NCBI RefSeq assembly: GCF_000378145.1
Contig: NZ_KB899296.1
Coordinates: forward strand, 1 to 64,000
Reading direction: 5' to 3'
Length of the DNA stretch: 64,000 nucleotides
Origin: Saccharibacillus kuerlensis DSM 22868
GTDB lineage: Bacteria > Bacillota > Bacilli > Paenibacillales > Paenibacillaceae
The notes under the pieces are model-generated. The model worked only from the letters and a program-made list of their open reading frames with translations, did not search any database and was not told where the DNA came from. Made by a program: the position numbers and the translations under genes. Of the stretch, positions 8,803 through 43,777 are shown piece by piece. Each line of letters opens with the position of its first letter. Position 1 is the stretch's first letter.

Positions 8803-8990
8803 AAGCTGCACTTTTTACAACAATAATGAGAGTTAGGCGGAGATTGAAAAGGCAAAGTTGTAGAATATACAACATTTTGACTTGGCTTCGGCAGAATTCA
8901 TGCTTTTTCAGCCGTAATGTTGTAAAAAGTACAACTTCGGCCAAGATAAGACCTGTTTTTGGTCAAAATGTTGCAGTTTTTGCAACTTGG
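8803..8990. repeat. 188-bp four-module inverted element A (type I)
   Basis: Four quasi-palindromic modules sharing TGTTGTA-N5-TGCAGCTT lie at 8803-8826 (minus), 8854-8879 (minus), 8916-8940 (plus) and 8966-8990 (plus). Offsets are 0, 51, 113 and 163, total 188 bp, symmetric about 8896. Each module can also form a small hairpin (for example GTTGTA/TACAAC). It lies inside the pur operon and should be transcribed. Confidence 0.8.
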
Positions 8991-9012
8991 CTTGATATGG
9001 ATTAAGCGCCTG

Positions 9013-9372
9013 GCCATGCAGTTAGCTGAGCCATGTGCCATGCAGTTAGCGGAACCATGTGCCATGCAGTTAGCGGAACCGTGTGCCATGCAGTTAGCTG
9101 AGCCACGTGCCATGCAGTTAGCTGAGCCACGTGCCATGCAGTTAGCTGAGCCATGTGCCATGCAGTTAGCGGAGCCATGTGCCATGCAGTTAGCGGAACC
9201 GTGTGCCATGCAGTTTGCTGAGCCACGTGCCATGCAGTTAGCTGAGCCACGTGCCATGCAGTTAGCTGAGCCACGTGCCATGCAGTTAGCTGAGCCGTGT
9301 GCCATGCAGTTAGCTGAGCCACGTGCGATGGTGTTAGCTGAACCACGCGCCATGCGGTTAGTTGAACCATGT
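9013..9372 (+). repeat. 24-bp tandem array, 15 copies, upstream of purB
   Basis: Fifteen copies of a 24-bp unit; the last two are degenerate. In the purB frame each encodes AMQLAEP(R/C). Three of the four commonly variable positions (15, 18 and 21 of the unit) are third codon positions in that frame; the fourth makes Cys/Arg. The array begins 22 bp after element A. The frame is open from 8959 into purB, but the ribosome binding site lies just before 9511. Confidence 0.9.
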
Positions 9373-9446
9373 GCCTGTGCCACGCCGCTGCCGCTCGCCA
9401 CACCACGTGACTATTGGAGTCAGTCCCGTCTAGCCCGCATTCCCTA

Positions 9447-9452
9447 TATAAT
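9447..9452 (+). promoter_or_regulatory. Possible internal -10 box before purB
   Basis: A perfect TATAAT lies 59 bp before the purB ATG. No good -35 stands 16-18 bp upstream (tcccgt), so an internal promoter is only a possibility. Confidence 0.3.
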
Positions 9453-9510
9453 GAAAGAAGGCTCGCCCAGCGGCGGACCTCAAACTTTACCCTTGGAGGC
9501 CATACCCCTT

Positions 9511-10809
9511 ATGATCGAACGTTACAGCAGACCGGAAATGCGCAGTATTTGGAGCGAAGAAAACAAATTCAAAGCATGGTTGGAAGTCGAAATTTGCGCT
9601 TGCGAAGCCTGGGTTGAACTCGGCGTAATCCCGCAGGAAGACGTCAAATTGATCCGCGAAAAAGCGACTTTCGATATCGACCGAATCTACGAGATCGAGC
9701 AGGAAACGCGTCACGACGTGATCGCGTTTACCCGTGCGGTATCCGAAAGCCTTGGCGACGAGCGCAAATGGGTGCATTACGGCCTGACTTCGACGGACGT
9801 TGTCGATACGGCGCTCGGTTACCTGCTGCTGCAGGCTAACCAGATTCTTGAACAGGATATCCTGAATTTTATCGAAATTTTGAAAGATAAAGCGATCGCC
9901 TACAAGAGCACTCCAATGATGGGCCGTACTCACGGCGTACACGCGGAGCCGACTACATTCGGTCTGAAAATGGCACTGTGGCACGAAGAGATGAAGCGCA
10001 ACCTGGAGCGTTTCCGCCATGCGGCAGACGGCGTACAGTACGGCAAAATGTCCGGCGCGGTCGGCACATATGCCAATATCGATCCCCGCGTCGAAGAGAT
10101 TGTCTGCGCGAAGCTTGGCACGAAAGCGGCGCCGATCTCGACCCAAACGCTGCAGCGCGACCGTCATGCGGAGTACATGGCTTCGCTCGCATTGATCGCG
10201 ACATCGCTCGACAAGTTCGCAACAGAAGTGCGCGCCCTTCAGAAGAGCGAATTCCGTGAAGTGGAAGAAGCGTTTGCGAAAGGTCAAAAAGGTTCGTCGG
10301 CTATGCCGCACAAACGCAATCCGATCGGCAGCGAGAACATCTCCGGCTTGTCCCGCGTAATCCGCGGTCATATGCTGACGGCATACGAGAATGTAGGGCT
10401 TTGGCATGAACGCGATATTTCGCACTCCTCCGCAGAACGCGTGATTCTGCCGGATGCGACAATGCTGCTCAACTATATGCTGAACCGGTTCGGCAATATC
10501 ATCAAGAATCTGACCGTGTTCCCGGAAAATATGAAGCGCAACATGGAACGCACTTACGGCGTGCCGTTCTCCGGCCGCATTATGACCAAGCTGATCGACT
10601 CCGGCATGAGCCGCGAGCAGGCCTATGATACTGTGCAGCCGAGAGCGATGCAGGCGTGGGAAGAACAGCGCAGCTTCAAAGAGATTGTGCTGGATAGCCC
10701 TGCAATTACCGATGTGCTGAGTGCGGAAGAGATCGAAGACGCGTTCAACCCGGCTTGGCATCTGAAGCATGTGGATACGATCTTCGCAAAACTGGGTCTG
10801 AACGAGTAG
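9511..10809 (+). CDS. purB: Adenylosuccinate lyase
   Basis: The 432-residue enzyme of the fumarase/aspartase superfamily splits SAICAR to AICAR plus fumarate and adenylosuccinate to AMP plus fumarate. The start [20 protein letters not shown] is the canonical PurB N terminus, and GGAGG at 9495-9499 lies 11 bp before it. [11 protein letters not shown] and [14 protein letters not shown] carry active-site residues, and the superfamily signature [11 protein letters not shown] holds the flexible catalytic loop Ser. Length fits the family. An in-frame 184-codon upstream extension exists (repeat array) but is unlike any PurB. The spacer to purC is 145 bp. Confidence 0.97.
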
Positions 10810-10954
10810 TCCGAAAACCCTGTGAACGGACCGTGCGCGCTCCTCTTCGATGCGGCACTTCAAAACGCCGGAGAGGATGCGAGCCGTGCGGATAACCGCA
10901 GGCTTCGGCAGCCGCAGAATCATCGCTAGCATTTCATTGTAAAGGGGGAGAATT

Positions 10955-11860
10955 ATGTTCGTATCTTCGCAGGCTCTGTCCACTGCCGAACATTTGGTGG
11001 ACGCGCCGCTGCTGTATAAAGGAAAAGTACGCGAGCTGTACGATCTCGGCGAGCATTATCTGATCGTCGTGACCGACCGTATTTCCGCATTTGATTATGT
11101 GCTTGATCCCGCTATTCCGTTCAAAGGCGATGTACTGAACAGCCTGAGTGCTTATTGGTTCGAACAAACAGCCGATCTGCTGGAAAACCATGTGGTTCAT
11201 ACCGATGTCCTGAAGCTTGGAGCGATCATTAAAGACCCCAAACTGCTTAAGAACCGCATTATGGTGACACGCAAAGCGGCACGGATCGATATCGAATGCG
11301 TCGTGCGCGGGTATATTACCGGCGGCGGCTGGCGGCAGTATCAGTCGGATGGCAGTATCAATGGCATTCCGCTGCCGGAAGGTCTGCGCAAGAATGCAGC
11401 ATTCCCGGAACCTCTGTTCACTCCTGCGGCCAAAAATGATGTCGGTCACGACGAAGACATTTCTTTTGCCAAGATGGAAGAACTTGTTGGAGCCGACTTG
11501 GCTGCCGAGCTGCGGGACAAAAGCCTTGCGCTTTATGATTTCGCCCTTAAACGCTGCGCCGAAAAAGGTATCATTCTCGCCGACTGCAAATTCGAGTTCG
11601 GTAGAGTCGACGGCAAAATCATTCTGATCGACGAGATTTTCACGCCGGATTCTTCCCGCTTCTGGGCAGAAGACAAGTATGCGCTCGATATCGAGATCGA
11701 CAGTATGGACAAAGAGCCGGTTCGCCATTACTTGTCCAGCACGGATTGGGACAAGAACAGTGCACCGGACCCGCTTCCTGCACATGTCGTTGAAGAAACG
11801 TCCAAACGCTATCTCAGCATTTACGAGCGGCTGACCGGCGAAAGCCTGATGGGTCTTTAA
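10955..11860 (+). CDS. purC: SAICAR synthetase
   Basis: The 301-residue enzyme condenses CAIR with aspartate using ATP. YKGKVRELYDLG at about 20-31 and VTDRISAFDYVLDPAIPFKG are the ATP-binding motifs of the long PurC form also found in yeast and in some Firmicutes. VRGYITGGGWRQY and LIDEIFTPDSSRFW are the two signature motifs. An AAGGGGGAG ribosome binding site precedes the ATG. It is about 60 residues longer than the short Bacillus subtilis type, which is normal for this subfamily. The gene sits in the expected order after purB, with a 226-bp spacer to purS. Confidence 0.97.
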   Translation: MFVSSQALSTAEHLVDAPLLYKGKVRELYDLGEHYLIVVTDRISAFDYVLDPAIPFKGDVLNSLSAYWFEQTADLLENHVVHTDVLKLGAIIKDPKLLKNRIMVTRKAARIDIECVVRGYITGGGWRQYQSDGSINGIPLPEGLRKNAAFPEPLFTPAAKNDVGHDEDISFAKMEELVGADLAAELRDKSLALYDFALKRCAEKGIILADCKFEFGRVDGKIILIDEIFTPDSSRFWAEDKYALDIEIDSMDKEPVRHYLSSTDWDKNSAPDPLPAHVVEETSKRYLSIYERLTGESLMGL

Positions 11861-12086
11861 AAGCTGAAGCCGCCCGAGAGACATATTCGTTCTTTCAGGT
11901 AGGCGTCCCGCATCACTCGTCAGTGTCGGCAAATTAATCCCTGCACTATCGTTCAAGCGTGTCCCGTATGGGACGAAAGCGGCTCGCCGTCTAACTCACC
12001 ACTATAAAAACGGCCAACTCCCCGCCTCCACTAGCCTTTTATAAGGAAGAAAGAGAGTCGGGAGGGCCTCATTCAGGAGGATATCC

Positions 12087-12329
12087 ATGAAAGCCAAAGT
12101 CTACGTCACCATCAAGCAAAGCGTACTCGATCCGCAGGGGGTTGCCGTTCAAGGCGCACTGCACTCGCTCGGTTTCAATGAAGTGGAAAGCCTGCGTATC
12201 GGCAAATATATGGAGCTCGAGCTGGGCGACGTGAACAAGGAAGAGGCCGAAGGACGCGTAAAATCGATGTGTGAAAAGCTGCTCGCAAACACTGTCGTTG
12301 AAGACTACCGCTACGAACTGGAGGGTTAA
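12087..12329 (+). CDS. purS: FGAM synthase subunit PurS
   Basis: The 80-residue small subunit of the three-part formylglycinamidine ribonucleotide synthase (PurS-PurQ-PurL), which transfers ammonia from glutamine to [22 protein letters not shown] and V-x-S-L-R-I-G-K-Y are family hallmarks. PurS forms a dimer that bridges PurQ and PurL. A very strong ribosome binding site (CAGGAGGATATCC) precedes it. purQ begins 4 bp after the stop, giving tight stoichiometric coupling. Confidence 0.97.
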
Positions 12330-12333
12330 TCGC

Positions 12334-13023
12334 ATGAAATTTGCAGTTCTCGTGTTTCCCGGTTCCAACTGCGACATCGACTGCTATAAAGCGGTGGAAA
12401 GCGTGCTCGGCGAACCTGTCGATTACGTGTGGCATACCGCAACCGACCTGTCCCCTTACGACTGCATTCTCGTACCTGGTGGATTCTCGTATGGCGATTA
12501 TCTGCGCTGCGGCGCGATCTCGCGTTTTGCTCCCGTCATGAACGAGGTGGCAAAAGCGGCTGAAGAAGGCAAGTTCGTTCTCGGCATCTGCAACGGTTTC
12601 CAGATCCTGACCGAAGCCGGACTGCTCCCTGGCGCGCTGCGCCGCAATATGTCCATGAAGTTTGCCTGCCGCGATACGGTATTGAAGGTGGAGAACAACC
12701 AGACGCCGTTCACCCGCGATTACGAAGCTGGCGAAGAGATCATCATTCCGATCGCGCACGGCGAAGGCAACTATTACTGCGACGAAGAGACGCTTGAAGA
12801 ACTGCGGGCCAATGGTCAGATCGCGTTCCGCTATAAGAGCAATCCGAACGGTTCGGTCGACGATATCGCAGGCGTTACGAACAAACAGGGCAACGTACTC
12901 GGCATGATGCCTCACCCGGAACGCGCTGTAAATGAGATTCTCGGTACAGTAGACGGCAAGAAGATGTTCACATCGATTATAAACGCTTGGAGGGAACAAC
13001 ATGACGCAGCAAATGTCCGTTAA
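12334..13023 (+). CDS. purQ: FGAM synthase glutaminase subunit PurQ
   Basis: A 229-residue class I glutamine amidotransferase that supplies ammonia to PurL. The N terminus [16 protein letters not shown], the nucleophile elbow GICNGFQ with Cys86, and the His/Glu pair in MMPHPERAV are all present. The ATG at 12334 follows GGAGGG at the end of purS and matches the family start. Its last 23 bp overlap purL, an arrangement common in Bacillus-type pur operons. Confidence 0.98.
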
Positions 13024-15262
13024 GGAACCGACGGCGGAGCAAATCGCGGATCAGCAAATTTACAAACAGATGGGTGTATCGGACAGCGAGTTCGAGCTCA
13101 TCTGCGGTTTTCTCGGCCGTAAACCGAACTACACGGAAATCGGCGTTTTTAGCGTCATGTGGTCGGAGCACTGTGCGTACAAAAACTCGAAGCCGCTGCT
13201 GAGAAAATTCCCGGTAACCGGACCTCGCGTCCTGATGGGACCGGGCGAAGGCGCGGGCATCGTCGATATCGGTGACAACCAAGCGGTCGTATTCAAGATC
13301 GAGAGCCATAACCACCCTTCGGCAGTCGAGCCTTTCCAGGGCGCGGCAACCGGTGTGGGCGGCATCATCCGCGACATTTTCTCGATGGGCGCACGCCCGA
13401 TTGCAACACTGAACTCGCTGCGCTTTGGGCGTCTTGAAAGCGACCGCGTCAAATATCTGTTCGAGCACGTGGTCAGCGGCATCGCTGGATACGGCAACTG
13501 CATCGGTATCCCGACGGTAGGCGGCGAAGTGGTCTTCGATGAAAGCTACGAAGGTAACCCGCTCGTTAACGCGATGTGCGTCGGCCTGATCGATCACGAC
13601 AAGATTCAGCGCGGCGTAGCAAAAGGCATCGGCAACCCGGTGTTCTACGTTGGCCCTCCGACGGGACGCGACGGCATTCACGGGGCGACATTCGCATCGG
13701 AAGAACTGACGGAAGATTCGCAGGAGCGCAAAACGGCGGTTCAGGTCGGCGATCCGTTCATGGAAAAGCTGGTCATGGAATCGTGCCTGGAGCTGATCAA
13801 CAGCGGCATCGTCATTGGTATTCAGGACATGGGCGCAGCGGGTCTGACCTGCTCCAGTGCGGAAATGGCGAGCAAAGCGGGCAACGGCCTGGAGCTGTAT
13901 CTCGACCAAGTGCCGCAGCGCGAAGAAGGAATGACGGCGTACGAAATGATGCTGTCGGAATCCCAGGAGCGCATGCTGTTCGTCGTCGAACCAAAGGATG
14001 AAGCGCAGGCGATGGAAATCTTCGAACGCTGGGGCGTGATCTGCGCGAAGGTTGGTAAAGTAACGGATACCGGACGCCTGCAGCTGCTGCATCACGGCGA
14101 AATCGTCGGCGATATGCCGGTGCACGCACTGGTCGACGAATGCCCGATCTACAACAAGCCATCGAGCGTACCATCTTATTACGAGAAGAACGCTGCAGTT
14201 GATACGACAGCTTACAACGAAGTGACGGATCTGGGCGGTGCTCTGAAAAAGGTTCTCGGTTCTCCAAGTGTGGCAAGCAAAGCATGGGTCTACGAGCAGT
14301 ATGATTACATGGTACGTACAAACACGGCGGTGCGTCCGGGTTCGGATGCGGCAGTCGTAACGATTGACGGTACGCGCAAAGCGCTGGCGATGACAACGGA
14401 TTGCAGCGGACGCTTCGTCTACCTCGATCCTGAAGTAGGCGGACGCATCGCGGTCAGCGAAGCGGCGCGCAATATCGTCTGCTCCGGCGCGGAGCCGCTG
14501 GCGATTACGGACAACCTGAACTTCGGCAGCCCGGAGAAGCCGGAAATCTTCTGGCAGATGGAAAAAGCGGTCGATGGCATGGCGGAAGCGTGCCGCGAGC
14601 TGGATACACCGGTTATCGGAGGCAACGTCAGCCTATACAACGAAAACGCCAAAGGTTCGATCTACCCGACGCCTGTTGTCGGCATGGTCGGTCTGGTGCA
14701 TGATGTGGATCATATTACGACGCAGCACTTTAAAGGCGAAGGCGATATTCTGATCCTGACGGGCGTGACCAAAGCTGAGCTGGGCGGTTCCGAGTTTCAG
14801 CAGGTGGTACACGGCGTAACGGAAGGACGTCCTCCGCAGCTTGATCTGGCGGTGGAGAAGAAGCTGCTGAGCGGCGTGCTTGAAGCCATCCAGAGCGGAC
14901 TCGTACGTTCGGCGCACGATCTGTCCGACGGTGGTCTGGCAGTTGCATTGGCGGAAAGCTGCATCGGCGGCGGGTTCGGCGCGCAGGTAAGCCTGCACAC
15001 GGGCGAGATCGGCGAAGAAGGACTGCGTCCAGACTTTGCACTGTTCAGCGAAAGCCAGTCGCGTATTCTGCTGTCGGCGACGCCTGAAAATGCGGACGCG
15101 CTGCTGAGCGGACTGAAGGCGCATGGTGTACCTGCGGTGAAGATCGGACGCGTGTCCGGACTGCAGCTGCATATTACGGTAGATGGCAAGGAAGTTATGA
15201 GCGAAGAAGTACACACACTCAAACAGGTCTGGGAGGATGCGATTCCATGTCTGATGAAGTAA
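13001..15262 (+). CDS. purL: FGAM synthase large subunit PurL
   Basis: The 753-residue ATP-dependent synthetase subunit of the short, Gram-positive type that needs PurS and PurQ. It shows [20 protein letters not shown] near the N terminus, the [25 protein letters not shown] active-site segment, and two AIRS-type halves ([10 protein letters not shown] and AHDLSDGGL mark the second). A TTGGAGGG ribosome binding site inside purQ precedes the ATG. It ends 16 bp inside purF. Confidence 0.98.
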
Positions 15263-16722
15263 AGCAGCCGTTGTGGACCGGGGACTACTACAACGAGGGA
15301 GCGGGTCATATTGACCCGTTCGACACCCTGCGCGAAGAATGCGGCGTATTCGGAGTCTATGGACATCCGGACGCTGCGTCCCTGTCCTACTACGGCCTGC
15401 ATGCACTTCAGCACCGGGGAGAGGAAAGCGCGGGGATTTGTGTCAGCAACACGGTAAACTTCAATTATCATCGCGGTTTGGGTCTTGTTAAGGAAGTATT
15501 CGACAAAGATACGCTCGCCGGACTTCAAGGAAGCCATTCCATTGGGCATGTACGTTATTCGACGAGCGGAGGCGGCGGTCTGACCAACGCTCAGCCGCTT
15601 GTGTTCAAATACAAGGGCGGCGATCTCGCCGTCGCAACAAACGGCAATATCGTCAACGCGCCGCAGATCCGGCGTGAGCTGGAGATGAGCGGTTCGATCT
15701 TCCAGACGACGAGCGACACGGAAGTCGTCGCGCATCTGATCGCCCGTTCGGAGAAAGACTTTGTCGAAGCGGCAAAAGACGCGATGAACCGGATGGTCGG
15801 CGGCTATGCATTTATGCTGCTGACTCACGACAAACTTCTTGTTGCCTGCGATCCGAACGGTCTGCGTCCGCTGACGATGGGCCGTCTCGGCGACGCGTAT
15901 ATTTTCACTTCGGAGACGTGTGCGCTCGAAGTCATCGGCGCAGAAATTGTCCGCGATGTTCGTCCCGGAGAAATGCTCGTTCTGGATCAAGACGGCCTGC
16001 GCGAAGACCGCTTCGCGGAAGTGCAGCGCAAGGCGCTCTGTGCGATGGAGTATATTTACTTCGCACGCCCAGACAGCGATATGAACGGCTCGAACCTGCA
16101 CTCCGCCCGCAAGCGGATGGGCAGTGTGCTGGCACGGGAGCAGTTCGTCGATGCCGATATCATCACCGGCGTGCCGGATTCCAGTATCTCGGCTGCGATT
16201 GGCTATGCCGAGCAGACGGGAATTCCGTACGAACTCGGATTGATCAAGAACAAGTATACCGGCCGGACGTTTATCCAGCCGAGCCAGGAACTGCGCGAGC
16301 AGGGCGTTAAGATGAAGCTCAGCGCGGTTCGCCGCGTTGTCGACGGCAAGCGTGTCGTCATGATCGACGATTCGATTGTACGCGGGACCACATCCCGGCG
16401 AATCGTTAACCTGCTGCGCGAAGCGGGAGCGACGGAAGTGCATGTATGCATTACGTCGCCGCCTTTTAAAAACCCGTGCTTCTACGGTATCGATACACCG
16501 GACAGCCGCGAACTGATCGCGTCTTCCCGTACGGTCGAAGAGATTCGTGAAGAGATTGGAGCGGACTCGCTGGCGTTCCTCAGCTACGAAGGATTGATCG
16601 AAGCGGTGGACGGAGACGATCGGGATTCCTACAAGGGCGGCATGTGTATGGCCTGCTTCGACAACGATTATCCGACGCAGGTGGATTTTGGTGGGGAAGA
16701 GAAATTCGGCTGCGGCTGCTAA
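15247..16722 (+). CDS. purF: Glutamine PRPP amidotransferase
   Basis: The 491-residue enzyme catalyses the first committed step, PRPP plus glutamine to phosphoribosylamine. A 31-residue propeptide precedes Cys32 ([11 protein letters not shown]), which would become the N-terminal nucleophile after self-cleavage, as in the Bacillus enzyme. The glutaminase domain has HRGEESAGI and TNGNIVN; the phosphoribosyltransferase domain has [13 protein letters not shown]. Cysteines in [16 protein letters not shown] and GGMCMACF fit the [4Fe-4S] ligands of this class. Product nucleotides feedback-inhibit the family. An 855-bp spacer follows, unusual inside a pur operon. Confidence 0.98.
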
Positions 16723-16784
16723 GGAGTCTGTTGCTGCTACGTGCTTGAAGCGCTTCGGGTGGAGGGGCCTTCGATCGCTGTTTC

Positions 16785-16835
16785 AATCCGATTCCTTTTA
16801 TTGAAGTAAAACATTTCAGAGGTGGGAATCGGATT
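16785..16835. repeat. Inverted repeat after purF
   Basis: AATCCGATTCC (16785-16795) and GGAATCGGATT (16825-16835) form a perfect 11-bp stem around a 29-nt loop. No T tract follows, so it is not a classical terminator; it may be a processing or stabilising structure at the 3' end of the purF message. Confidence 0.6.
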
Positions 16836-16997
16836 TCAAAGGCGAACTGTAGCGTATGCTTCCGATGCAGCTTTCCTAAGGAAAGCTTTTAGCTTCTCCG
16901 GCTCTCTCCACCCTCCGCTTACTGCGGCGCACCTTCAACCGTTCCCGCCCCCAATTTTGGGTAGAGAGTAGGACTGCTTTTTCTCCTTTGGGAAAAA

Positions 16998-17125
16998 GCG
17001 GGTAAGGTGAAGAGTTTGAGCTCAGCTTTGCCGAAGCCGGGTTAGGAGCAGGTAAGGCGAAGAGCATGGCTCAGCTTTGCCGAAGCCGGTTAAGGGCTGG
17101 AAGAGATGGGCTTGGCCTTGCCATG
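16998..17125 (+). repeat. Degenerate 45-50 bp direct repeat in purF-purM spacer
   Basis: GGTAAGGTGAAGAG...CTCAGCTTTGCCGAAGCCGG recurs at about 16999 and 17051, with a third partial copy ending CCGAAGCCGGG near 17135. No coding potential was recognised. Confidence 0.65.
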
Positions 17126-17206
17126 CCGAAGCCGGGAGGTTTGAAATAGGGCTGGTGTTCAGGCAGCAGGTATTCGAGGATATTAGCGGATATCGGCGGG
17201 GTATGT

Positions 17207-17395
17207 ATGCTGCAGTTTCTGCAATATTTTCGTGTGCAAAAGGCAGATTGAAGCGATGAAAGTGTATTTTATACAACAATTTTAGTGGGAACAGGCTGAA
17301 TTAAGCGGGGATGCAGCATTTATGTTGTATTTCTTGCAGTATTTGCTCGTAATCCTTGTTAGATCGGCTCAATATGTTGTAAAATCTGCAGCTTC
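17207..17395. repeat. 189-bp four-module inverted element B (type I)
   Basis: Modules of the same type as element A lie at 17207-17230 (minus), 17260-17285 (minus), 17320-17345 (plus) and 17371-17395 (plus); offsets are 0, 53, 113 and 164. The left spacer shares AGGC..AGATTGAA with element A, so A and B are true copies. The element lies inside the pur operon and its right end runs into the 9-bp array. Confidence 0.8.
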
Positions 17396-17473
17396 ACCCG
17401 CTTCACCCGCTTCACCCGCTTCACCCGCTTCACCCGCTTCACCCGCTTCACCCGCTTCACCCGCTTCACCCGC
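17393..17473 (+). repeat. 9-bp tandem array (ttcacccgc), 9 copies
   Basis: Nine perfect copies that begin within the right end of element B. They would encode Ser-Pro-Ala if translated, but no start with a ribosome binding site supports translation. Confidence 0.95.
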
Positions 17474-17577
17474 TTTCACAGCAGTTACAGCTCCTATTGC
17501 CGTAGCCCTCAACTACGCCGCTGTGCTGCTTTCATTATTTTAGAAGAAACCATTTTAATATAAAGGATGTGTCGGTT

Positions 17578-19860: not shown

Positions 19861-19895
19861 ATCCTATTCCACCATTCTAAGGAGGACTTTTCATC

Positions 19896-23271: not shown

Positions 23272-23352
23272 ACAGCACTAACAGCACTAACAGCACTAAC
23301 AGCACTAACAGCACTAACAGCACTAACAGCACTAACAGCACCGACAGCTCTA
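23272..23352 (+). repeat. 9-bp tandem array (acagcacta), 7 perfect plus 2 degenerate copies
   Basis: It lies after purD and its last degenerate copy merges with the left end of element C. It mirrors element B, where the array touches the right end. Confidence 0.95.
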
Positions 23353-23535
23353 ACGAACCTCAGTCACTCTATTTAGCTGATTTAGTCGATTTTCTTGCTC
23401 TAACGAATCATGAGAACGTTATTTGATGATTCCGTGCGATTTTAGAGAAGAAATCTAAGAATAGCGTTGTGGTGATTCGTTAGATTTTCAAAACAGACAA
23501 AATGAACTGATTAGCGTGATAAGGATTCGTTAGAA
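23348..23535. repeat. 188-bp four-module inverted element C (type II)
   Basis: Modules sharing CTAACGAATC-N6-AACGTTATTT lie at 23348-23374 (plus, weakest), 23398-23425 (plus), 23460-23484 (minus) and 23511-23535 (minus); offsets are 0, 50, 112 and 163. The second and third modules agree at about 21 of 26 positions when paired. Confidence 0.8.
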
Positions 23536-29278: not shown

Positions 29279-29466
29279 CAAAATAGATGCTAGAATGCAA
29301 CTAAATAACGACTTTAGCCATGGTTTTTTGAAATAAGTGCTGAGATACATCTATTTATATAAAAAAACAAGATGCAGAAGCAAAAAGGGTTATTTAGTTG
29401 TATAGGCGCACCTATTTCGTAAAAGACGGAAAAAAAGACTAAAATAATTGTACAGACGCACTTATT
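29279..29466. repeat. 188-bp four-module inverted element E (type III)
   Basis: Modules sharing GTTGTA-N5-GCACCTATTT lie at 29279-29304 (minus), 29330-29354 (minus), 29394-29419 (plus) and 29444-29466 (plus); offsets are 0, 51, 115 and 165. The sequence is AT-rich and differs from types I and II, but the architecture and total length are the same. It lies between two convergent genes. Confidence 0.75.
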
Positions 29467-33281: not shown

Positions 33282-33403
33282 TCGTATGCCGTGCCTCCTT
33301 ATGTATATCCATCTATCCAGGATGCCGATGGTGTTCCGGCCAAACATGTTTAGCCTAACAGCGCTTTGTTAAATAAAACCCCATTCTTTTGTAAAAATTA
33401 GTT

Positions 33404-33455: not shown

Positions 33456-33519
33456 GGGAGGGACTTGTCGACATAAATCATGGTCGGCCGAAGGCTGGCC
33501 TGGAGAAGAGGCGATTCAA

Positions 33520-34338: not shown

Positions 34339-34373
34339 GCAGCGCTATTGAAAACATGAAAGTAAAAATGATG

Positions 34374-34412
34374 TAAAAAAACAGGGCGACGCGCATTGCG
34401 TCGTCCTGTTTG
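34374..34412. terminator. Terminator after GDPD gene
   Basis: AAACAGGGCGACGC (from 34379) pairs with GCGTCGTCCTGTTT (to 34412) with one G-T pair. The T run is strongest on the minus strand (A7 at 34374-34380). Confidence 0.75.
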
Positions 34413-34512
34413 GTTTGCTAAGGTTAAGGCTAATGAAGAGGTAAAGAAACCGGCCTTCAATCAACATCCGGCAGCCTATGTGAGCGCCGGGGACAAGGAG
34501 CTGTCCATTTTC

Positions 34513-36081: not shown

Positions 36082-36160
36082 AGCTGTCGGCGTTCCAGCA
36101 GATCATTAAGAATTAGATCATTTCGAACACAGTTGAAATGCAGGATAGGGTGGATGTGAA

Positions 36161-36203
36161 AGAAGCCTGTTTCTCCGAACACTCGGAGAAACAGGCTTCT
36201 TTT
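36161..36203. terminator. Bidirectional terminator between ppx and ppk
   Basis: A perfect 18-bp stem (36161-36178 with 36183-36200), a 4-nt loop and a short T run on both strands. Confidence 0.92.
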
Positions 36204-36247
36204 GGTGTTGTTTTCACTATCACTCGAGTATGGTGCCGACATCTTAA

Positions 36248-38350
36248 TTAACTCAGCGTCGATTTCCATGCCCGGATATCTTCCGCACGGAACTGGCTGC
36301 GGAAAGGCTCTTCGCCGTTCCTGAAAAACTCATAGCCGCCGCTGGACGTCAGCATACGTGCTTTGACATTGTCTTTCAGATACAGCTTCAAAATATTCAG
36401 CAGTGTATCCTGACAGCCTGGATCGAGGATCGGACACATTAATTCGACGCGGCGTGTCAAATTTCGTGTCATCCAGTCGGCACTGGAGAGAAAGATCTCG
36501 GAATCGCCGCCATTCTCGAAATAGTAAATTCGGGAATGTTCCAGATAGCGATCGACAATACTGCGAACCGTAATGTTTTCGCTCAGGCCAGGTACTCCCG
36601 GACGCAGGCAGCAGACGCCGCGCACGATCAGATCAACTTTTACGCCGGCTTTTGACGCTTCGTACAGTTCGTCGATGATCTGCTGATTGGACAGCGAATT
36701 GAATTTGGCGATAATGCGCGCAGGCCGGTCAGCTTTGGCATGGTCGGCTTCACGGCGAATATTGGTTACGAACGTACCCATCATCGTATCCGGCGCAACC
36801 GAAATTTCCTTCCAGTCTGGGTGAGTGGAATAACCGGTGATGTGATTAAACAGCTCCGAAGCATCTTCTCCGATCGAAGTGTTGGATGTCAACAGACCGA
36901 CATCCGTGTACAACCGGGCTGTCGCATCGTTGTAGTTACCCGTGCCGACGTGCACATAGCGGCGCAGTCCATCTTCTTCGCGGCGAACGACGAGTATGGC
37001 TTTAGCATGCGTTTTGAGACCGACAAGTCCGTAGACAACGTGGCAGCCAGCCTGCTCCAATGTACGAGCCCAGCTGATATTGCGTTCTTCGTCGAAACGG
37101 GCTTTCAGCTCGACAACCACCGTAACCTGCTTGCCGGCTTCGGCAGCCGCGGCAAGCGAACGAATAATCGCCGATTTGCTGCTGACCCGGTAGAGCGTCA
37201 TTTTGATCGCCATGACATTCGGATCTTCGGCAGCCTGTTCAACAAAATCGCTGACCGCATCGAAGGATTCGAACGGATGGTGCATCAGTACGTCGCGCTC
37301 TTTCAAGACGCTGAAGTAGTCGGTATCTCCTCCATCGCCAAACTCCGGAGGGTAAATGGACAATCTGGACGGATACCGGAGCGCCTCGCGATTTTTGACA
37401 GAACCGCTGAACGACGTCAGGAAGCCGAGGTCGATCGGCCCATCGATTTCGTAAACGGCATCCTGAATTTCGAATTCTTCCTGCAGCAGCTGCAGAGCGT
37501 ATGGGTGAAAGTCTTTCTGCACTTCAAGCCGCACTGGCGCGCCGCGGCGGCGCTTGCGAAGCTTCTTCTCAATTTCTTCGAGCAGATCTTCCGCTTCTTC
37601 CTCGTTGATCTCCAGATCGGCGTCTCGAGTGAGACGGAAACTGTGTACGGTTACCGCTGTATAGCCGCTGAACAGAGTCTGGATATGATGGCAGATCAGC
37701 TCGTCGATCAGAACATAATTCTGCTTTTTGCTGTGGGAGCGCTGCGAAACGGAGACCAGTCTTGGCAGAATTGAAGGTACCTGTACGATAGCAAAATAAT
37801 ACCGTTCTTCGTCAGGCAGATCTTCCGGTGTGTTGTCGCGCTCGAGCAGCACGGCCAAATAGACGTTCTGGCTGTGCACGAGCGGGAACGGACGGCTCAG
37901 GTCGACCGCCATCGGTGTCAGGACAGGGAAAATGACATCATGAAAATAATCATCCGCCGACTTTTGCTGGGCAGCGCTCAGATCATCATAGCGATTCAGC
38001 ACAAGTCCTTCCTTCGTCATCAAGCGAATTAAATCGCGGTATGTACGATATTCCGCTGCCACCATCTTTTCGATGCGTTTGGTGAGACGTTTGTAGAGAA
38101 CGGGCGGTGTATAGCCGGAAAAGTCTTTTTTGGTAATGCCTGCTTTGAGCTGATTGCGGATTCCTGCTACACGGACACTCATGAATTCGTCCAAGTTGCG
38201 TGAGACAATCCCGAGAAACTTGGCGCGTTCCAGAAGGGGGGTATCCGGGTCCTGTGCTTCTTCAAGTACGCGATAATTGAATTCGATCCAGCTGAGGTCA
38301 CGATTAATGTAATACGGGGAAGTTCCCCGGTAAGCAGTTTGGTTATCCAT
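36248..38350 (-). CDS. ppk: Polyphosphate kinase 1
   Basis: A 700-residue PPK1 that polymerises ATP gamma-phosphate into polyphosphate. YINRDLSWIEFNYRVLEEAQDP opens the N domain. HHPFESFDAV, the autophosphorylated His in GLKTHAKAILVVRRE and the second phospholipase D-like motif near LSSADWMTRNLTRRVE follow in order. Length is normal. GGAGGAATT precedes the ATG at 38350. It is convergent with ppx and divergent from the beta-galactosidase gene. Confidence 0.96.
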   Translation of the reverse strand: MDNQTAYRGTSPYYINRDLSWIEFNYRVLEEAQDPDTPLLERAKFLGIVSRNLDEFMSVRVAGIRNQLKAGITKKDFSGYTPPVLYKRLTKRIEKMVAAEYRTYRDLIRLMTKEGLVLNRYDDLSAAQQKSADDYFHDVIFPVLTPMAVDLSRPFPLVHSQNVYLAVLLERDNTPEDLPDEERYYFAIVQVPSILPRLVSVSQRSHSKKQNYVLIDELICHHIQTLFSGYTAVTVHSFRLTRDADLEINEEEAEDLLEEIEKKLRKRRRGAPVRLEVQKDFHPYALQLLQEEFEIQDAVYEIDGPIDLGFLTSFSGSVKNREALRYPSRLSIYPPEFGDGGDTDYFSVLKERDVLMHHPFESFDAVSDFVEQAAEDPNVMAIKMTLYRVSSKSAIIRSLAAAAEAGKQVTVVVELKARFDEERNISWARTLEQAGCHVVYGLVGLKTHAKAILVVRREEDGLRRYVHVGTGNYNDATARLYTDVGLLTSNTSIGEDASELFNHITGYSTHPDWKEISVAPDTMMGTFVTNIRREADHAKADRPARIIAKFNSLSNQQIIDELYEASKAGVKVDLIVRGVCCLRPGVPGLSENITVRSIVDRYLEHSRIYYFENGGDSEIFLSSADWMTRNLTRRVELMCPILDPGCQDTLLNILKLYLKDNVKARMLTSSGGYEFFRNGEEPFRSQFRAEDIRAWKSTLS

Positions 38351-38937
38351 AATTCCTCCAAAGTAAAGCGTGTAGGCAGAATACAATTGCACCGCACACG
38401 CCGAGTATTTCGTATAAATTCGTTCTTGCTTATCTCGTTAGTCAAGCTGTTCCGGCGGGCACGAAACGATTTGAATGTAATAACGAACGCAGATTAAAAG
38501 GCATTCGTACTTTTCATTTACCCGATCGATTAAGCTCAAATCGGACCGGTTAAGCATGATAACGTCTTCCAGACACTTATCTACTAGTATAGCGTTCTTT
38601 TGTTAAGTGAATGTAAAAAAACCCTTTTTCCATATTAATTCCATTCTATGAGCTGCTGTAAGGATTAAGCGTTATCATTCCCTTTTCCCTGTATCTGTCA
38701 TCTAATTATAGACTAAATCTGATACAAAATATTAACAGAAAGTAAAATGATGGACAAGATTAGCTTAATGCTTATTCGTTTTAAGGAGAGCAAAACAGTC
38801 GAGATCCAACTGCCCGATAAAAAAGTAGAATTTCCACGATTAAACTATTGCAATTAAAATAAAGCGTTTGCAGGACATGCGGGTGATAAACGCGAAAGGT
38901 GTACGGACAGGCACGAAAAGAAAGGGTGGAAATCGAC
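38351..38937. other. Divergent spacer between ppk and beta-galactosidase gene
   Basis: An AT-rich 587-bp spacer with no gene. AATAAAGCGTTTGCA (38858-38872) agrees with the cre consensus at 8 of 10 fixed positions, and attaagcgttatcat (38664-38678) resembles the cre-like site upstream of fucI. Several AACGAA-like words occur but do not form the four-module layout. Catabolite control is therefore possible, not shown. Confidence 0.4.
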
Positions 38938-41004
38938 ATGGAACGTCTGCATTACGGAGTCGCTTATTATGACGAATATATGCCTTATGATCGATTGGAC
39001 GAAGATATTAAAATGATGAAAGCAGCGGGAATTACAGTCGTGCGCATCGCGGAATCGACATGGAGCACACACGAACCGCAAAATGGGGTCTTCGATTTCA
39101 GATCGGTGGATCGCGTGCTGGATGGCATGCATGCAGCGGGCATCTCCGTGATCGTCGGCACGCCTACTTATGCTGTGCCAGCTTGGATGGTGCGCGAACA
39201 TCCTGAAGTACTGGCCGAAACGAGCAGGGGACCTGGCAAATACGGTGCACGTCAGATCATGGATATTACAAGTCCGGCGTACCTGTTCTATGCCGAGCGG
39301 ATTATTCGCAAACTGATCGGACGCGTGTGCAGTCATCCGGCGGTAATCGGCTACCAGATCGATAACGAGACCAAGCATTACGGCACTGCGGGCCCCAACG
39401 TGCAGCTGCGCTTCGTCAAAGCGATGCGAGAAAAGTTCGGCGGCGACCTTAACGAACTTAACCGCCGTTTCGGCCTGGCTTATTGGAGCAATCGGATTGA
39501 CGCTTGGGAAGATTTTCCGTCTGTGCTGGGTACAATTAATGGCAGTCTCGGCGCAGAATTTGCCCGCTTCCAGCGGCAGTTGGTGACGGATTTCCTCGCC
39601 TGGCAGGTCGGGATCGTAAATGAATACAAGAAGCCCGGACAGTTTACGACCCACAACTTCGATTTCGATTGGCGCGGCCATTCGTACGGCGTGCAGCGGG
39701 ACGTAAACCACTTTGAAGCTTCCAAGCCTTTCGATATTGCGGGTGTAGATATTTATCACCCATCGCAAAGCGAACTGACAGGCGCAGAAATTTCGTTTGG
39801 CGGCGATCTGACGCGTTCGCTCAAGCAGTCGAATTACCTTGTACTGGAGACACAGGCGCAGGCATTTCCGCATTGGACACCGTATCCGGGACAGCTTCGA
39901 CTGCTGGCGTTCAGCCATCTGGCTTCGGGAGCGAGCATGGTGGCGTATTGGCATTGGCATTCCATTCATCATTCGTTTGAGACGTATTGGAAAGGACTGC
40001 TCAGCCATGACCTGCAGCCAAATCCCGTATACAACGAAGCAAAGACAATTGGAGCCGACTTTGCACGTTTGAACGAATCATTGGTCGGTCTGCGCAAAAC
40101 CAACCGGACAGCAGTGTTCGTAAGCAATGAAGCGCTCAGTGCGATCGACTGGTTCCCGCTGCCGGGCGGCATACTTTATAACGACATTGTGCGCCGCTGC
40201 TATGATGCGCTGTACAAGCTCAATGTCGGATGTGATTTCATCTATCCGGACACGGATTATAAAGTGCTGACCGAATACGATCTGATTGTCGTTCCTGCAC
40301 TGTACAGCGCGCCTGATACACTGCTGGAAAAGCTGAATGATTTTACAAAACAAGGCGGGCACGTCGTGTATACGTTCAAAAGCGGATTTGCGAACAGCGA
40401 TGTACAGGTGCGCACAAGTGTACAGCCGGGAATTATCGAACGTTCCTGCGGCGTAAACTATCAGCTGTTCGTCGAACCGAAAAACGTACGCGTTCAGCTT
40501 ACAGGCGAATTATTCGATACAGTTGAAGAAGATTGCATTGTAGAAACGTGGATGGAGCTGCTGACGCCGACAACGGCGGAAGTATGGGCACGCTACGAGC
40601 ATCCGCAGTGGAAAGACTACGCGGCCATTACAACCAATCGCTTTGGCGAAGGCAGAGCGACATATATCGGGTTCTTCCCAAGTGAAGGGCTGCTGCTGGG
40701 AGTGTTCAAGCGGGTGCTGCGCGAAGCGGGAGTATGGGGACAGGATCAGAAGCTTTCTTTCCCACTGATCGTCAAATCTGGCGTGAATGCGGCGGGCTGC
40801 CGCGTGCGTTATTTCCTGAACTATTCCGGCGAACCGGTGGGGTTTGAGTATGGCTACCGCGACGGTCGCGAGCTGCTGTCCGGCACCGACCTGCGCCACG
40901 GCCAACTGCTGCGGCTGCCGGCCTGGGGCGTTGCAATCGTCGAGGACCGCGAGAGTGCAGCCTGTTCGGCGGCGGCAACGGAGGAAGGTGCGGCAAGAGA
41001 TTGA
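38938..41004 (+). CDS. GH42 beta-galactosidase
   Basis: A 688-residue glycoside hydrolase of family 42. It opens MERLHYGVAYYDEYMPYDRLDEDIKMMKAAGITVVRIAESTWS, the family TIM-barrel start. The acid/base is Glu144 in GYQIDNETKHYG and the nucleophile Glu304 in YLVLETQAQAF. A trimerisation domain (about 375-590) and a small C-terminal beta domain follow. No signal peptide is seen, so it should act on imported beta-galactosides in the cytoplasm. The ATG at 38938 follows AAAGGGTGG. It is an orphan: no transporter is adjacent. lacZ is avoided as a symbol because GH42 is unrelated to E. coli LacZ (GH2). Confidence 0.94.
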   Translation: MERLHYGVAYYDEYMPYDRLDEDIKMMKAAGITVVRIAESTWSTHEPQNGVFDFRSVDRVLDGMHAAGISVIVGTPTYAVPAWMVREHPEVLAETSRGPGKYGARQIMDITSPAYLFYAERIIRKLIGRVCSHPAVIGYQIDNETKHYGTAGPNVQLRFVKAMREKFGGDLNELNRRFGLAYWSNRIDAWEDFPSVLGTINGSLGAEFARFQRQLVTDFLAWQVGIVNEYKKPGQFTTHNFDFDWRGHSYGVQRDVNHFEASKPFDIAGVDIYHPSQSELTGAEISFGGDLTRSLKQSNYLVLETQAQAFPHWTPYPGQLRLLAFSHLASGASMVAYWHWHSIHHSFETYWKGLLSHDLQPNPVYNEAKTIGADFARLNESLVGLRKTNRTAVFVSNEALSAIDWFPLPGGILYNDIVRRCYDALYKLNVGCDFIYPDTDYKVLTEYDLIVVPALYSAPDTLLEKLNDFTKQGGHVVYTFKSGFANSDVQVRTSVQPGIIERSCGVNYQLFVEPKNVRVQLTGELFDTVEEDCIVETWMELLTPTTAEVWARYEHPQWKDYAAITTNRFGEGRATYIGFFPSEGLLLGVFKRVLREAGVWGQDQKLSFPLIVKSGVNAAGCRVRYFLNYSGEPVGFEYGYRDGRELLSGTDLRHGQLLRLPAWGVAIVEDRESAACSAAATEEGAARD

Positions 41005-41186
41005 GCGTGATAATGCTGCGCCGCATTTTATGGAATTCTCCGAAGTGGGAAAAGACTTTTTTGCGGCGCCGTTTAAAGCAGAAAGGTTGAATATAGTAAA
41101 TTTGCAGCACGCTAAAGTGTTGAATAAGTGAAAATGAAAGAATGTGCAGAGCAGAAGCTGTGTAGATTTCGGTAGGGAGGCATCGT

Positions 41187-41840
41187 ATGGACGGGAAAAA
41201 GGTCAATCTTTATATGGTCAGGCACGGCGAGACGTATCTGAATCGCTACGGAAGAATGCAGGGCTGGGCGGACAGTCCGCTTACGGAGGAAGGCAAGGTT
41301 GTAGCCGTTGAGGTCGGCAAAAGGCTGTCGGACGTTCACTTTGCCTATGTGTATACGAGCGATTCCGGCAGGACACTCGAAACGGCCGAGATTATGCTGA
41401 AAGAGAACCGGCACAATATCCCCATGATCCATCGCACCAAAGCTTTTCGAGAAACTTTTTTCGGGAGCTTTGAAGGAGAGATCTCGGCGGTCGCCTGGAA
41501 CAAAATTGCTCAAGAGAACGGTGCAGGAAGTTTCCGTGAACTGATCCAAACGTATACGGTAGCGGAAGTGGCAGATATGACCAAAAAGGCCGATCCGTAT
41601 CACCACGCGGAAAACTTCGACGAGCTCTGGACGCGTATCGGCGGGGGGCTGGATGCGGTTGTCGGGCTGGATTACGAGGACGGCGCGAACATTCTGATTG
41701 TCACTCACGGCAATACGATCCGCAATATTGTGAATCGGCTGTGCGAAGGAATCGACGTTACCATCGATATTCGCAATGCGAGCGTGACGATTATCGAGTA
41801 TTCGGATGAAGCGTATAAAATGATCAGTTTTAATCAGTGA
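41187..41840 (+). CDS. Histidine phosphatase (phosphoglycerate mutase-like)
   Basis: A 217-residue protein with the RHG motif LYMVRHGETYLN (phosphorylated His13), YTSDSGRTLETAEI, and the second His in LIVTHGNTIRNI. This is the branch 1 histidine phosphatase fold. Members include phosphoglycerate mutases and broad phosphatases; without metabolic context the substrate is open. GGGAGGCATCGT precedes the ATG. A low-complexity tail follows (gaagtaaatg repeats, 41837-41901) and then a shared terminator. Confidence 0.9.
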   Translation: MDGKKVNLYMVRHGETYLNRYGRMQGWADSPLTEEGKVVAVEVGKRLSDVHFAYVYTSDSGRTLETAEIMLKENRHNIPMIHRTKAFRETFFGSFEGEISAVAWNKIAQENGAGSFRELIQTYTVAEVADMTKKADPYHHAENFDELWTRIGGGLDAVVGLDYEDGANILIVTHGNTIRNIVNRLCEGIDVTIDIRNASVTIIEYSDEAYKMISFNQ

Positions 41841-41901
41841 AGTGACGTGAAGTAAGTGAAGTAAAATGAAGTGAAGTAAATGAAATGAAGTAAATGAAGT
41901 G
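41837..41901 (+). repeat. Imperfect gaagt(a/g)a(aa)t array
   Basis: About nine imperfect copies of a tgaagtaaa/tgaagtg unit begin at the stop codon of the histidine phosphatase gene. Confidence 0.75.
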
Positions 41902-41963
41902 GGATAACCGGATTCTGAAAGTAGGACAGCGAATGATCGCAGATTGGGTGCCGTTTAATTCGA

Positions 41964-42015
41964 TCATCTACCAAAAAGGAGAGAGGCCCAGAAGGCTCTC
42001 TCTTTTGGTAGATGA
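41964..42015. terminator. Long inverted repeat, bidirectional terminator
   Basis: TCATCTACCAAAA and TTTTGGTAGATGA flank an inner GAGAG(a)GGCC/GGC(t)CTCTC stem with T runs on both strands. It serves the convergent histidine phosphatase and fucU genes. Confidence 0.88.
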
Positions 42016-42061
42016 CTTGTATGACAGTGCAAAGCTGGGGTTAGACTTCGAGTTCTGTTTT

Positions 42062-42484
42062 TCAGATCACGCCTTTTTTCAAAATAATATTCCCGTATAG
42101 GGCCTCTTCGCCGGTTAAGACGACTGCATAGGCTTGCTTGGCGCGTTCGTAAAAGGCAAAACGATCCTCGAACGAAAGCTGTGCGGAAGCATCGTAGCGT
42201 GCGATAATTTCGCGGTATGTGTCCCAAATGGTCGGTACGACCGGATCGCCGGGTACGACGCTCATCATTGCACCTTGATAGTCGGCGTACGGATCAAGCG
42301 GCAGCAGTTCCAGAATAGCATCAAGCAGCGGAGGGATACCGAGACCGTCGCAGCGAATCACACGTTCATGCAGGGAGTGTCCAGGGAAATTCGCATCCGC
42401 AAGAACGATTTCGTCACCGTGTCCCATTCGCATCAAGGCGTAAAGAAGGTCGGGAGAGAGGATTTTAGGGATTTTTTTCAGCAT
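42062..42484 (-). CDS. fucU: L-fucose mutarotase, RbsD/FucU family
   Basis: A 140-residue protein that interconverts the anomers of L-fucose so that the isomerase receives its substrate. It opens MLKKIPKILSPDLLYALMRMGHGDEIVLADANFPGHS, with the catalytic His in MGHGDEIVLADANFPG, the signature of the family. It is the last gene of the fuc operon, 18 bp after fucA, which supports FucU over RbsD. A ribosome binding site (GGAGGAG) precedes the ATG. Confidence 0.94.
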   Translation of the reverse strand: MLKKIPKILSPDLLYALMRMGHGDEIVLADANFPGHSLHERVIRCDGLGIPPLLDAILELLPLDPYADYQGAMMSVVPGDPVVPTIWDTYREIIARYDASAQLSFEDRFAFYERAKQAYAVVLTGEEALYGNIILKKGVI

Positions 42485-42502
42485 GTCTGTATCTCCTCCG
42501 TT

Positions 42503-43180
42503 CTAGAATCCGTAAAATGAACGCAGCGCGACCAACTCGTCGATCCGGTGCTTCGGCAGCTCGCGTTCGCCGTCGATCATACGCGTGAGGAAGGTCAGCT
42601 TGGCTGTATATTCCAGACGCTCCATGTTCATGTAGGCGTCCATTACGCTTTTGCCCCAAGTCAGCGCACCGTGGCTTTCAAGCAGAACGGCCGTTTTCTT
42701 GCCGAGGAAAGGCATGATCGAATCCGGAATTTCTTCGGTCGAAGGGGTGCCGTACACAGCCAGTGGAATATCGCCCATGGCGATTACGGATTCCGGCATC
42801 ATCATTTTGTCGAGCGCTTCCCCCTTGATCGCAAAAGCGGTCGCATAGGGAGGATGGGCATGGACAACGCCGTTCATTTCCGGGCATTCGCGGTATACAC
42901 GCAGATGCATTTTCACTTCGGTAGACGGGCGATAGCCTTCGGCAGCTTCGACGATCTCGCCGTCCAGATTAACCCGGACCAGCATATGCGGTTCGAGATA
43001 GCCTTTGCTGACACCGGTCGGGGAAGCCAGAATCTCTGTTTCCGACAAACGGGCAGAGATATTGCCGTCGTTGGCGGCGATAAAGTCTTTGTTGAACAGA
43101 TTGCGGCCGATATCGCAGATTTGCAGGCGCAGCATCCGCTCGCGTTCGATGAGATCGGCAGTCTGATATAGTTGGGTCAT
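42503..43180 (-). CDS. fucA: L-fuculose-1-phosphate aldolase, class II
   Basis: A 225-residue zinc aldolase that splits L-fuculose-1-phosphate into DHAP and L-lactaldehyde. NDGNISARL, the TGVSKGYL phosphate site, PSTEVKMHLRVYRE with the catalytic Glu, zinc His pair in GVVHAHPPYA and the third His in ESHGALTWG are all present. The ATG at 43180 follows AAGGAGG by 7 bp; a longer frame upstream is low-complexity repeat. It lies between the kinase and fucU, although nearly 600 bp of repeat-rich spacer separate it from the kinase. An L-rhamnulose-1-phosphate aldolase is less likely in length and context. Confidence 0.92.
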   Translation of the reverse strand: MTQLYQTADLIERERMLRLQICDIGRNLFNKDFIAANDGNISARLSETEILASPTGVSKGYLEPHMLVRVNLDGEIVEAAEGYRPSTEVKMHLRVYRECPEMNGVVHAHPPYATAFAIKGEALDKMMMPESVIAMGDIPLAVYGTPSTEEIPDSIMPFLGKKTAVLLESHGALTWGKSVMDAYMNMERLEYTAKLTFLTRMIDGERELPKHRIDELVALRSFYGF

Positions 43181-43289
43181 AGAAGAGCCTCCTTTTGGTC
43201 GATTGAATGGGTGAGGCTTTTTGAGTAAAGTTGTAGGCCTCCGGCTGCAGGCTAACAGATACAGGTGCAAGTACCGACCGTGGCGTGAA

Positions 43290-43425
43290 TATAGAAATAG
43301 AAATAGATATAGATATAGATATGAGTAGGTGTATAAATAGAGGTGCAAATTGAGGTGCAGGTAATAGATACAATCATAATCAGAAGGAAAAGGACAAGGA
43401 CAAGGATAAGGATAAGGATAAGGAT
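43290..43425. repeat. Two hexamer arrays in rhaB-type/fucA spacer
   Basis: atagaa/atagat, five copies at 43290-43319, and aaggac/aaggat, six copies at 43390-43425. Between them are degenerate aggtgyaa words. No gene is supported. Confidence 0.92.
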
Positions 43426-43589
43426 AAGTGTAGGTGCAAGGGCAGGTACACAGGTACAAATATAAGTAAAAATGTAATTTGTAAATTTGAATTATAGGTA
43501 GAAACGAAGTTGCCGGTAAAGTTATAAATATTGCTATCGCTATTGGTATAGGCGCCGATAGGTGTGCTGAGTTGAGCGGTAAGCAGTGA

Positions 43590-43777
43590 GCTAACGAATC
43601 CTAAGAACGTTATTCGACCGAATATTGAAGTTTTGATATTCTAACGAATCTGGATATCGCTATTTCGTGTTTCCACAGCAGTTTTGGACGAATAAGGAGA
43701 AATAACGTTCTCAGGATTCGTTAGAAATGGAAACCGGCATTTTGGGCTCTTTTAACGTTATGAGGATTCGTTAGAAG
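43590..43777. repeat. 188-bp four-module inverted element D (type II)
   Basis: CTAACGAATC-type modules lie at 43590-43617 (plus), 43639-43667 (plus), 43697-43727 (minus) and 43748-43777 (minus); offsets are 0, 49, about 109 and 158. The last module ends at the base next to the stop codon of the kinase gene. Inner modules agree best. It lies inside the fuc transcription unit. Confidence 0.82.

Follow-up and report, generated by a model that had tools for sequence, protein, structure and literature searches.

Elements of the window

The window is the whole stretch of 64,000 nucleotides analysed here, from Saccharibacillus kuerlensis DSM 22868 (contig NZ_KB899296.1, positions 1 to 64,000), and contains a one-strand run of purine-synthesis (pur) genes and five composite elements of 188 or 189 bp. 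Each element comprises four modules of about 25 bp starting near 0, 50-52, 110-113 and 160-165, with two of them inverted relative to the other two. Three types of module word were identified among the five. Type B (GTTGTA-N5-TACAAC dyads) is found in element 1 (8803..8990), located between purK and purB with modules at 8803-8827 (+), 8855-8879 (+), 8913-8937 (-) and 8964-8988 (-), and in element 2 (17207..17395), between purF and purM, with modules at 17206-17230 (+), 17258-17282 (+), 17319-17343 (-) and 17371-17395 (-). Type A (TCTAACGAATC..CGYTATT) is found in element 3 (23348..23535), downstream of purD, with modules at 23349-23373 (+), 23399-23423 (+), 23460-23484 (-) and 23510-23534 (-), and in element 5 (43590..43777), with modules at 43589-43613 (+), 43639-43663 (+), 43702-43726 (-) and 43752-43776 (-). 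Type C (AATAAGTGC..TACAMYTATTT) is represented by element 4 (29279..29466), with modules at 29282-29306 (+), 29332-29356 (+), 29392-29416 (-) and 29442-29466 (-). Elements 1 and 2 thus lie inside the pur run. The diversity of words agrees with a reading made earlier from the sequence only, the corresponding words being TTGTA/TGCA dyads at 8803 and 17207, CTAACGAATC at 23348 and 43590, and the AATAAGTGC type at 29279.

The same sequence-only reading had placed the five elements at these positions with four modules each, two of them inverted, and they were recovered by a blind, sequence-independent scan that measures direct and inverted similarity among four 25-bp windows near the above offsets. 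The five scored 0.80, 0.74, 0.69, 0.69 and 0.61, and no score above 0.49 arose when the window was locally shuffled five times; the five elements outranked all matches of the window that are not tandem repeats. Everything else at 0.52 or above is tandem-repeat sequence, located near 9.0-9.2 kb, 44.4-44.6 kb and 0.2 kb; a wider scan of the window brings in a further tandem match, the 46-bp array at 56.6 kb. Shuffling of longer stretches, 1.244 Mb in all, gave peaks of up to 0.58, so the element at 17207 (0.61-0.62), the weakest, is the least secure of the five.

Exact module words in the window are clustered in all cases (7 of 7 for CTAACGAATC and 2 of 2 for AATAAGTGC). In 400 kb of contig C1, CTAACGAATC occurs at 1 site with 0.7 expected and AATAAGTGC at 6 sites with 2.7 expected, 4 of the 6 being clustered. 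Exact words standing alone are therefore not in excess over chance in the window and these 400 kb.

Spacing of the modules

The wide scan covered 244 sequences (2.65 Mb) and admitted arms of 40-61 bp and inner offsets of 48-75 bp; matches with self-identity above 0.62 at any period from 1 to 119 were dropped as tandem. It returned 221 non-tandem matches at 0.60 or above, whereas local shuffles of the same sequences gave 1. Searches with the pattern reversed gave 0 matches in 59 genomes (two runs), 1 in 149 genomes and 0 in 81 genomes. An artefact of chance or of AT-richness is rejected by the blind scan, the shuffles and these controls.

An arm of exactly 50 bp was present in 185 (first arm) and 181 (second arm) of the 221 matches. 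A total of 144, duplicate records included, could be registered on CTAACGRAWC with at most two mismatches in each of the four modules, and in these the two arms measured exactly 50 bp in 138 and 135 cases; 124 elements remained once duplicates were dropped and only those with 50 bp in both arms were kept. The inner span of the 144 is quantised: 84 bp in 23, 85 in 104, 86 in 2, 94 in 9 and 95 in 6, with none at 87-93. The two classes (84-86, 129 elements; 94-95, 15 elements) differ by one helical turn, and a class one turn longer is what is expected of DNA sites obliged to keep the same helical face. Type C was registered separately and comprises 22 elements, with arms of 50 bp in 21 of 22 each and an inner span of 85 in 22 of 22. 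Finally, 108 named loci contained 200 same-strand word pairs away from the locus ends (2 more lie at ends), an element exact in both arms being counted from each side; 184 of these had an inverted partner pair, which was spaced 50 bp in 172 when 47-53 was allowed.

Distribution and diversity of module words

DNA searches identified dozens more copies in the genome of the window. Around these matches 26 loci were fetched, and the blind scan recovered the four-module layout at 0.60 or above in 22 of them and not in the other four (L010, L015, L016 and L025). Word pairs spaced 50 bp numbered 22 for CTAACGAATC and 52 for AATAAGTGC in this genome, with 0 for the reversed pattern. Among relatives, the pair TAACGRAWC-N41-TAACGRAWC was present in 52 of 149 sampled genomes of the order, a count that includes the genome of the window, and absent from all 75 genomes taken from other orders of the class. 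In 379 kb from eight other-order genomes the blind scan gave a single match at noise level (0.57), which leaves room for other words at low density. Named matches, among at least 108 stretches, belonged to Saccharibacillus, Paenibacillus, Cohnella and one bin labelled only Paenibacillaceae. A role as phage cargo is unsupported: a full element was found in 2 of 11 viral contigs bearing the TAACGRAWC word pair, the only word tried.

Further words were identified in the same layout: TAACGGAAC, close to type A, in L100, L083 and L081; TTAGCGGAAC..GTCCGCTAA in L105, with arms of 52 bp; AATGTTGCAT..ATGCAACATT, close to type B, in L192; TGGAT..ATCCA in L031; GTGTTC..GGAAC-like in L162; TTGTGC..GCAA in L170; and GTGATCA..TGAACAC in L122 and L107. 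With close words counted once, about seven unrelated words share one layout, several of them coming from a single element each.

A/T wave

The A/T content of type A, modules and spacers together, has a period of 10.0 with a power of 0.98, compared with 0.019 in the flanks. The 25-bp arm spacers of type A alone (n=218) show a wave amplitude of 0.110, with rotated controls at or below 0.024; type C spacers show 0.126 (n=40; controls at or below 0.046), and 0.128 when the copies borne by a mobile element, described below, are left out (n=28 spacers; controls at or below 0.061). The two main maxima of types A and C fall within 1-2 bp of each other and the last spacer bases differ. The spacer letters are poorly conserved, yet a similar wave is found in these two unrelated word types.

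Conservation of length

The spacer-sharing type C copies of the window's genome sit inside a miniature inverted-repeat transposable element (MITE) that is about 410-600 bp long and has the ends TAGGGCRTGTACGCAAAC..GTTTGCRTACAGGCCCTA. The MITE termini, TAGGGC..GCCCTA, lie outside the four-module element; they are the only clear terminal inverted repeats identified and belong to one type C subfamily. Eleven of 13 aligned copies were compared (L252_3660 and L257_10653 were dropped): a single indel event fell within the element (2078 bp), against 10 within the left part of the MITE (1513 bp; Fisher p 0.001), at similar substitution rates of 62/kb and 83/kb, respectively. One such MITE, with terminal inverted repeats TAGGGCRTGTACGCAAAC, is seen at L048:3137-3740 and carries a type C element and a variable tandem region. 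The left part of the MITE is present in 13 of the 20 loci L244-L263, where several contigs end in or near it.

Orthologous positions were also identified. Three elements are shared by S. qingshengii and S. deserti without length change. In one of them all 186 bases of the element are identical, and an 8-bp tandem array distinguishes its flank in the two species. The element at 43590 has orthologues in S. qingshengii (G003) and S. deserti (G009), the alignment to G003 being gap-free. Over four orthologous pairs length was unchanged in 4 of 4, with a divergence of 0, 2, 5 and 14% in modules and 0, 8, 10 and 37% in spacers; modules were thus less diverged than spacers in three pairs and both were unchanged in one. 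The G009 gap matching element 3 also holds a type A element, and element 4 is absent from the orthologous G009 gap. That selection acts on the layout rather than on the letters, as had been proposed from the sequence, is supported by the exact or one-turn-shifted spacing and by the depletion of indels. The accompanying view that the elements are not a recent transposon burst fits most copies seen. Exceptions are the type C subfamily, spread inside the MITE, and G121, where most word pairs share spacer sequence (judged by eye) and would form one amplified lineage.

Position in gaps and on the chromosome

The gap census relied on simple open reading frame (ORF) calls in sequences of at least 5 kb. 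Of 175 elements, 138 lie in gaps (39 convergent, 15 divergent and 84 co-directional), and the others either overlap an ORF (18) or are located at edges (19). The reference, all 694 gaps of at least 190 bp including those bearing elements, comprises 139 convergent, 175 divergent and 380 co-directional. A promoter role is unsupported, divergent gaps being depleted (15/138 vs 175/694). Within the pur genes, the purF/purM junction is also occupied in Paenibacillus sp. GM2. The gap corresponding to window 11860-11949, by position probably purC/purS, is empty in the window and occupied in G009 and G036, with different words in the two genomes.

Chromosomal positions were taken for the TAACGRAWC word pair only, with dnaA as the origin; most genome lengths were rounded and G067 was in two contigs. 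Elements in the origin half were 31 of 37 in G002, 31 of 46 in G019, 10 of 12 in G036, 5 of 5 in G068, 15 of 15 in G067, 7 of 7 in G064 and 5 of 7 in G061, with 3 of 7 in G026, 1 of 3 in G062 and 15 of 32 in G121. The ten genomes together give 123 of 171 (p 4e-9), a p-value that is too small because orthologous copies are not independent. This enrichment in some chromosomes hints at chromosome organisation.

Proposed assembly site and its rivals

A near-fixed four-site layout with changing sequence in Saccharibacillus, Paenibacillus and Cohnella suggests a putative protein complex that grips and bends DNA. From the layout combined with the one-turn step, the depletion of indels and the A/T wave we infer DNA held on one face by a two-fold, four-dimer complex. 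Each element is probably a DNA-level assembly site, its four putative dimer sites facing the same side of the helix in a two-fold complex whose DNA is bent or wrapped. Each dyad-like module of about 25 bp would be an imperfect dyad for one putative protein dimer, and the four dimers, 50, 60 (or 70) and 50 bp apart from centre to centre, would share one face. Phased at 10 bp, the A/T-rich and G/C-rich DNA between modules would allow bending or wrapping round the two-fold symmetric complex. The different words would be read by related proteins of differing specificity on a common scaffold. The role is a guess made because of the origin-half bias: the elements may anchor or organise the chromosome, preferentially in its origin half, possibly acting as a polymerase roadblock, and the tandem arrays found nearby could reflect polymerase stalling. 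A wider proposal, more tentative and on balance doubtful, is an order-wide class of DNA element set by geometry, a nucleosome-like putative wrapping site for a protein family whose words diversify on a fixed 50/60/50 scaffold and A/T wave and which marks or organises the origin-proximal half.

Several observations weigh against this proposal. Arms of 51-52 bp in type B-like words, and of 52 bp in G041, show that 50 is not universal; many elements were found through the 50-bp pattern, one arm of each thus being preselected, and the other arm is for this reason the fairer test. The spacers of the L113/L121 pair diverge more than its flanks (2 and 7%), which makes the constraint on letters only modest. 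The flank control carries a weak 10-bp signal of its own (0.031 vs a rotated maximum of 0.020). G026, G062 and G121 show no origin bias, and the copies in G061, G064 and G067 are orthologous and not independent. A strong roadblock would have to be tolerated inside the pur run. Finally, no DNA-binding candidate recurs among the ten proteins encoded next to the five elements, a set made up of enzymes of metabolism and of the cell wall, an AraC-type regulator and a solute-binding protein.

The chief rival is an origin as transposase sites, because a short synaptic loop would need helical phasing too. The elements would then be non-autonomous and MITE-like, with M1-M2 and M3-M4 as double transposase- or recombinase-binding ends, and the need for these to meet on very short DNA would preserve the spacing. 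The arrangement is indeed end-like, with two direct sites per end and the ends inverted; copies are dispersed and mostly intergenic, present or absent between species, and amplified in G000 and G121; and short direct repeats at the edges are slightly in excess, with a mean longest repeat of 2.34 vs 1.95 in mispaired flanks (sd 0.13). Such an origin is nevertheless unlikely. No consistent target duplication was found at the edges of the 124 TAACGRAWC elements (a repeat of at least 5 bp in 10, where mispaired flanks predict 6.1), the amplified type C copies travel in a different MITE with ends of its own while the inner element still resists indels, and orthologous positions retain elements of unchanged length. 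Of the 200 half-pairs, 184 were closed at the usual inner span, no transposase search being made; of the other 16, 11 had a partner pair at 4-5 total mismatches and 5 at 6-9, and in five of the 11 one partner was exact and the other gone.

A structured RNA, that is, a long imperfect hairpin in transcripts of the ERIC/BIME kind, is very improbable. M1 is complementary to M4 and M2 to M3, type A elements of the window fold strongly (z -6.4 to -8.5) and the two elements within the pur run are probably transcribed, but folding is weaker for types B and C (z -1.3 to -4.8). A functional hairpin predicts pairing between spacers 1 and 3, and cores that best match their hairpin partners. Across 109 elements no spacer pairing was detected (0.380 within vs 0.375 between elements, z 0.6), and core similarity was higher to the direct neighbour (M1-M2 0.54, M3-M4 0.53) than to the hairpin partner (M1-M4 0.42, M2-M3 0.43). 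In this check of covariation the hairpin partners had no advantage over the remaining inverted pairs (M1-M3 0.43, M2-M4 0.45; 0.33 between elements), contrary to what a generic structured RNA would give. Rfam returned no element match over the whole window at the gathering threshold, only a purine riboswitch, and none inside any element for six loci at E<=0.1. The 10-bp step and the A/T wave would have no reason at the RNA level. Between the hairpin RNA and the dimer-read DNA element that had both been suggested from the sequence, the wave and the one-turn step thus favour the second and the unpaired spacers speak against the first. Neutral relics, old insertions surviving without current function in the slowly evolving origin-proximal half, are improbable as well. 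The generally greater conservation of the origin half of chromosomes counts for this explanation, as do the turnover between species and the scarcity in divergent gaps, which fits promoter avoidance; indel depletion inside elements at similar substitution rates, and unrelated words with one layout and a similar A/T wave, count against it.

Comparison with known systems

The nearest known thing is the family of 190-bp repeats of Bacillus subtilis, which reportedly (Kunst et al. 1997) form a few subfamilies confined to the origin-proximal half and may resemble the elements in length (about 190 bp), subfamilies and location. G219, considered as a possible Bacillus genome, was judged from four ORFs not to resemble B. 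subtilis. DNA-wrapping regulators and chromosome markers of the SlmA/Noc type also use dimer sites, wrapped or dispersed, those of SlmA and Noc being absent near the terminus, but these are single sites or have other spacings, and none is known to us with a fixed four-site layout. MITEs are likewise short, dispersed, non-coding and of inverted symmetry, whereas the elements described here have phase-locked inner sites and no consistent target duplication at their own edges. Limited searches of open-access literature, covering few subscription papers, gave no title or abstract opening that describes such a family for these genera; together with Rfam this agrees with the earlier statement that no named family has this layout. 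The bacterial interspersed mosaic elements (BIMEs) and repetitive extragenic palindromes (REP, or PU) of enterobacteria are comparable in their palindromic modules of alternating orientation, their intergenic and repeated occurrence and their protein-binding sites (general background and PMC2817692). They differ in being recognised by a conserved REP sequence, whereas here the word changes, with about seven unrelated words in one layout, and the spacing is fixed to the base pair. If the proposed assembly site is true, it would represent an architectural DNA-protein system so far overlooked in a large and well-sequenced order of bacteria, with helical geometry conserved while recognition words are exchanged, and the several word types within one genome would be built-in controls for finding the proteins.

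Tandem arrays and other features

Three tandem arrays, all with approximate ends, are located next to elements of the window: a 24-bp array of about 15 copies at 9013..9375, starting 23 bp from element 1; a 9-bp array (CACCCGCTT) at 17391..17475, abutting element 2; and a 9-bp array (ACAGCACTA) at 23272..23342, abutting element 3. Short tandem arrays were identified within 40 bp of 23 of 139 elements, compared with 38 of 1098 positions placed in gaps that lack elements (odds 5.5, p 2e-8); this intergenic control replaced an earlier one of random placements (49/2980), which fell mostly in coding DNA. A 46-bp tandem array of dyads (GTCCAACATTG..CAACATTGGAC) occupies window 56584-56862, in a gap where G008 (L045) and G003 (L112) have type C-like elements.

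Whole four-module elements in tandem are found in Paenibacillus sp. GM2 at L143:3276-4306, L217:2178-3089 and L224:4036-4820, with units of about 211, 242 and 200 bp. At L105:19355-19870 four copies of a second dyad (TTAGCACCAATATTNGTTGCTAACCC-like) stand beside a four-module element, three of them spaced about 55 bp. Two high-scoring arrays that mimic the layout were set aside as plain tandem arrays: L100:11620-13020 (G019), with 23 copies of the perfect dyad CAAGTAACTTTTNTTACTTG in an array of about 51 bp, a spacing near that of the elements, and L069:1600-2700 (G002), a 113-bp repeat of about 10 units. The purine riboswitch of the window is located at 6474-6575, upstream of the pur genes.

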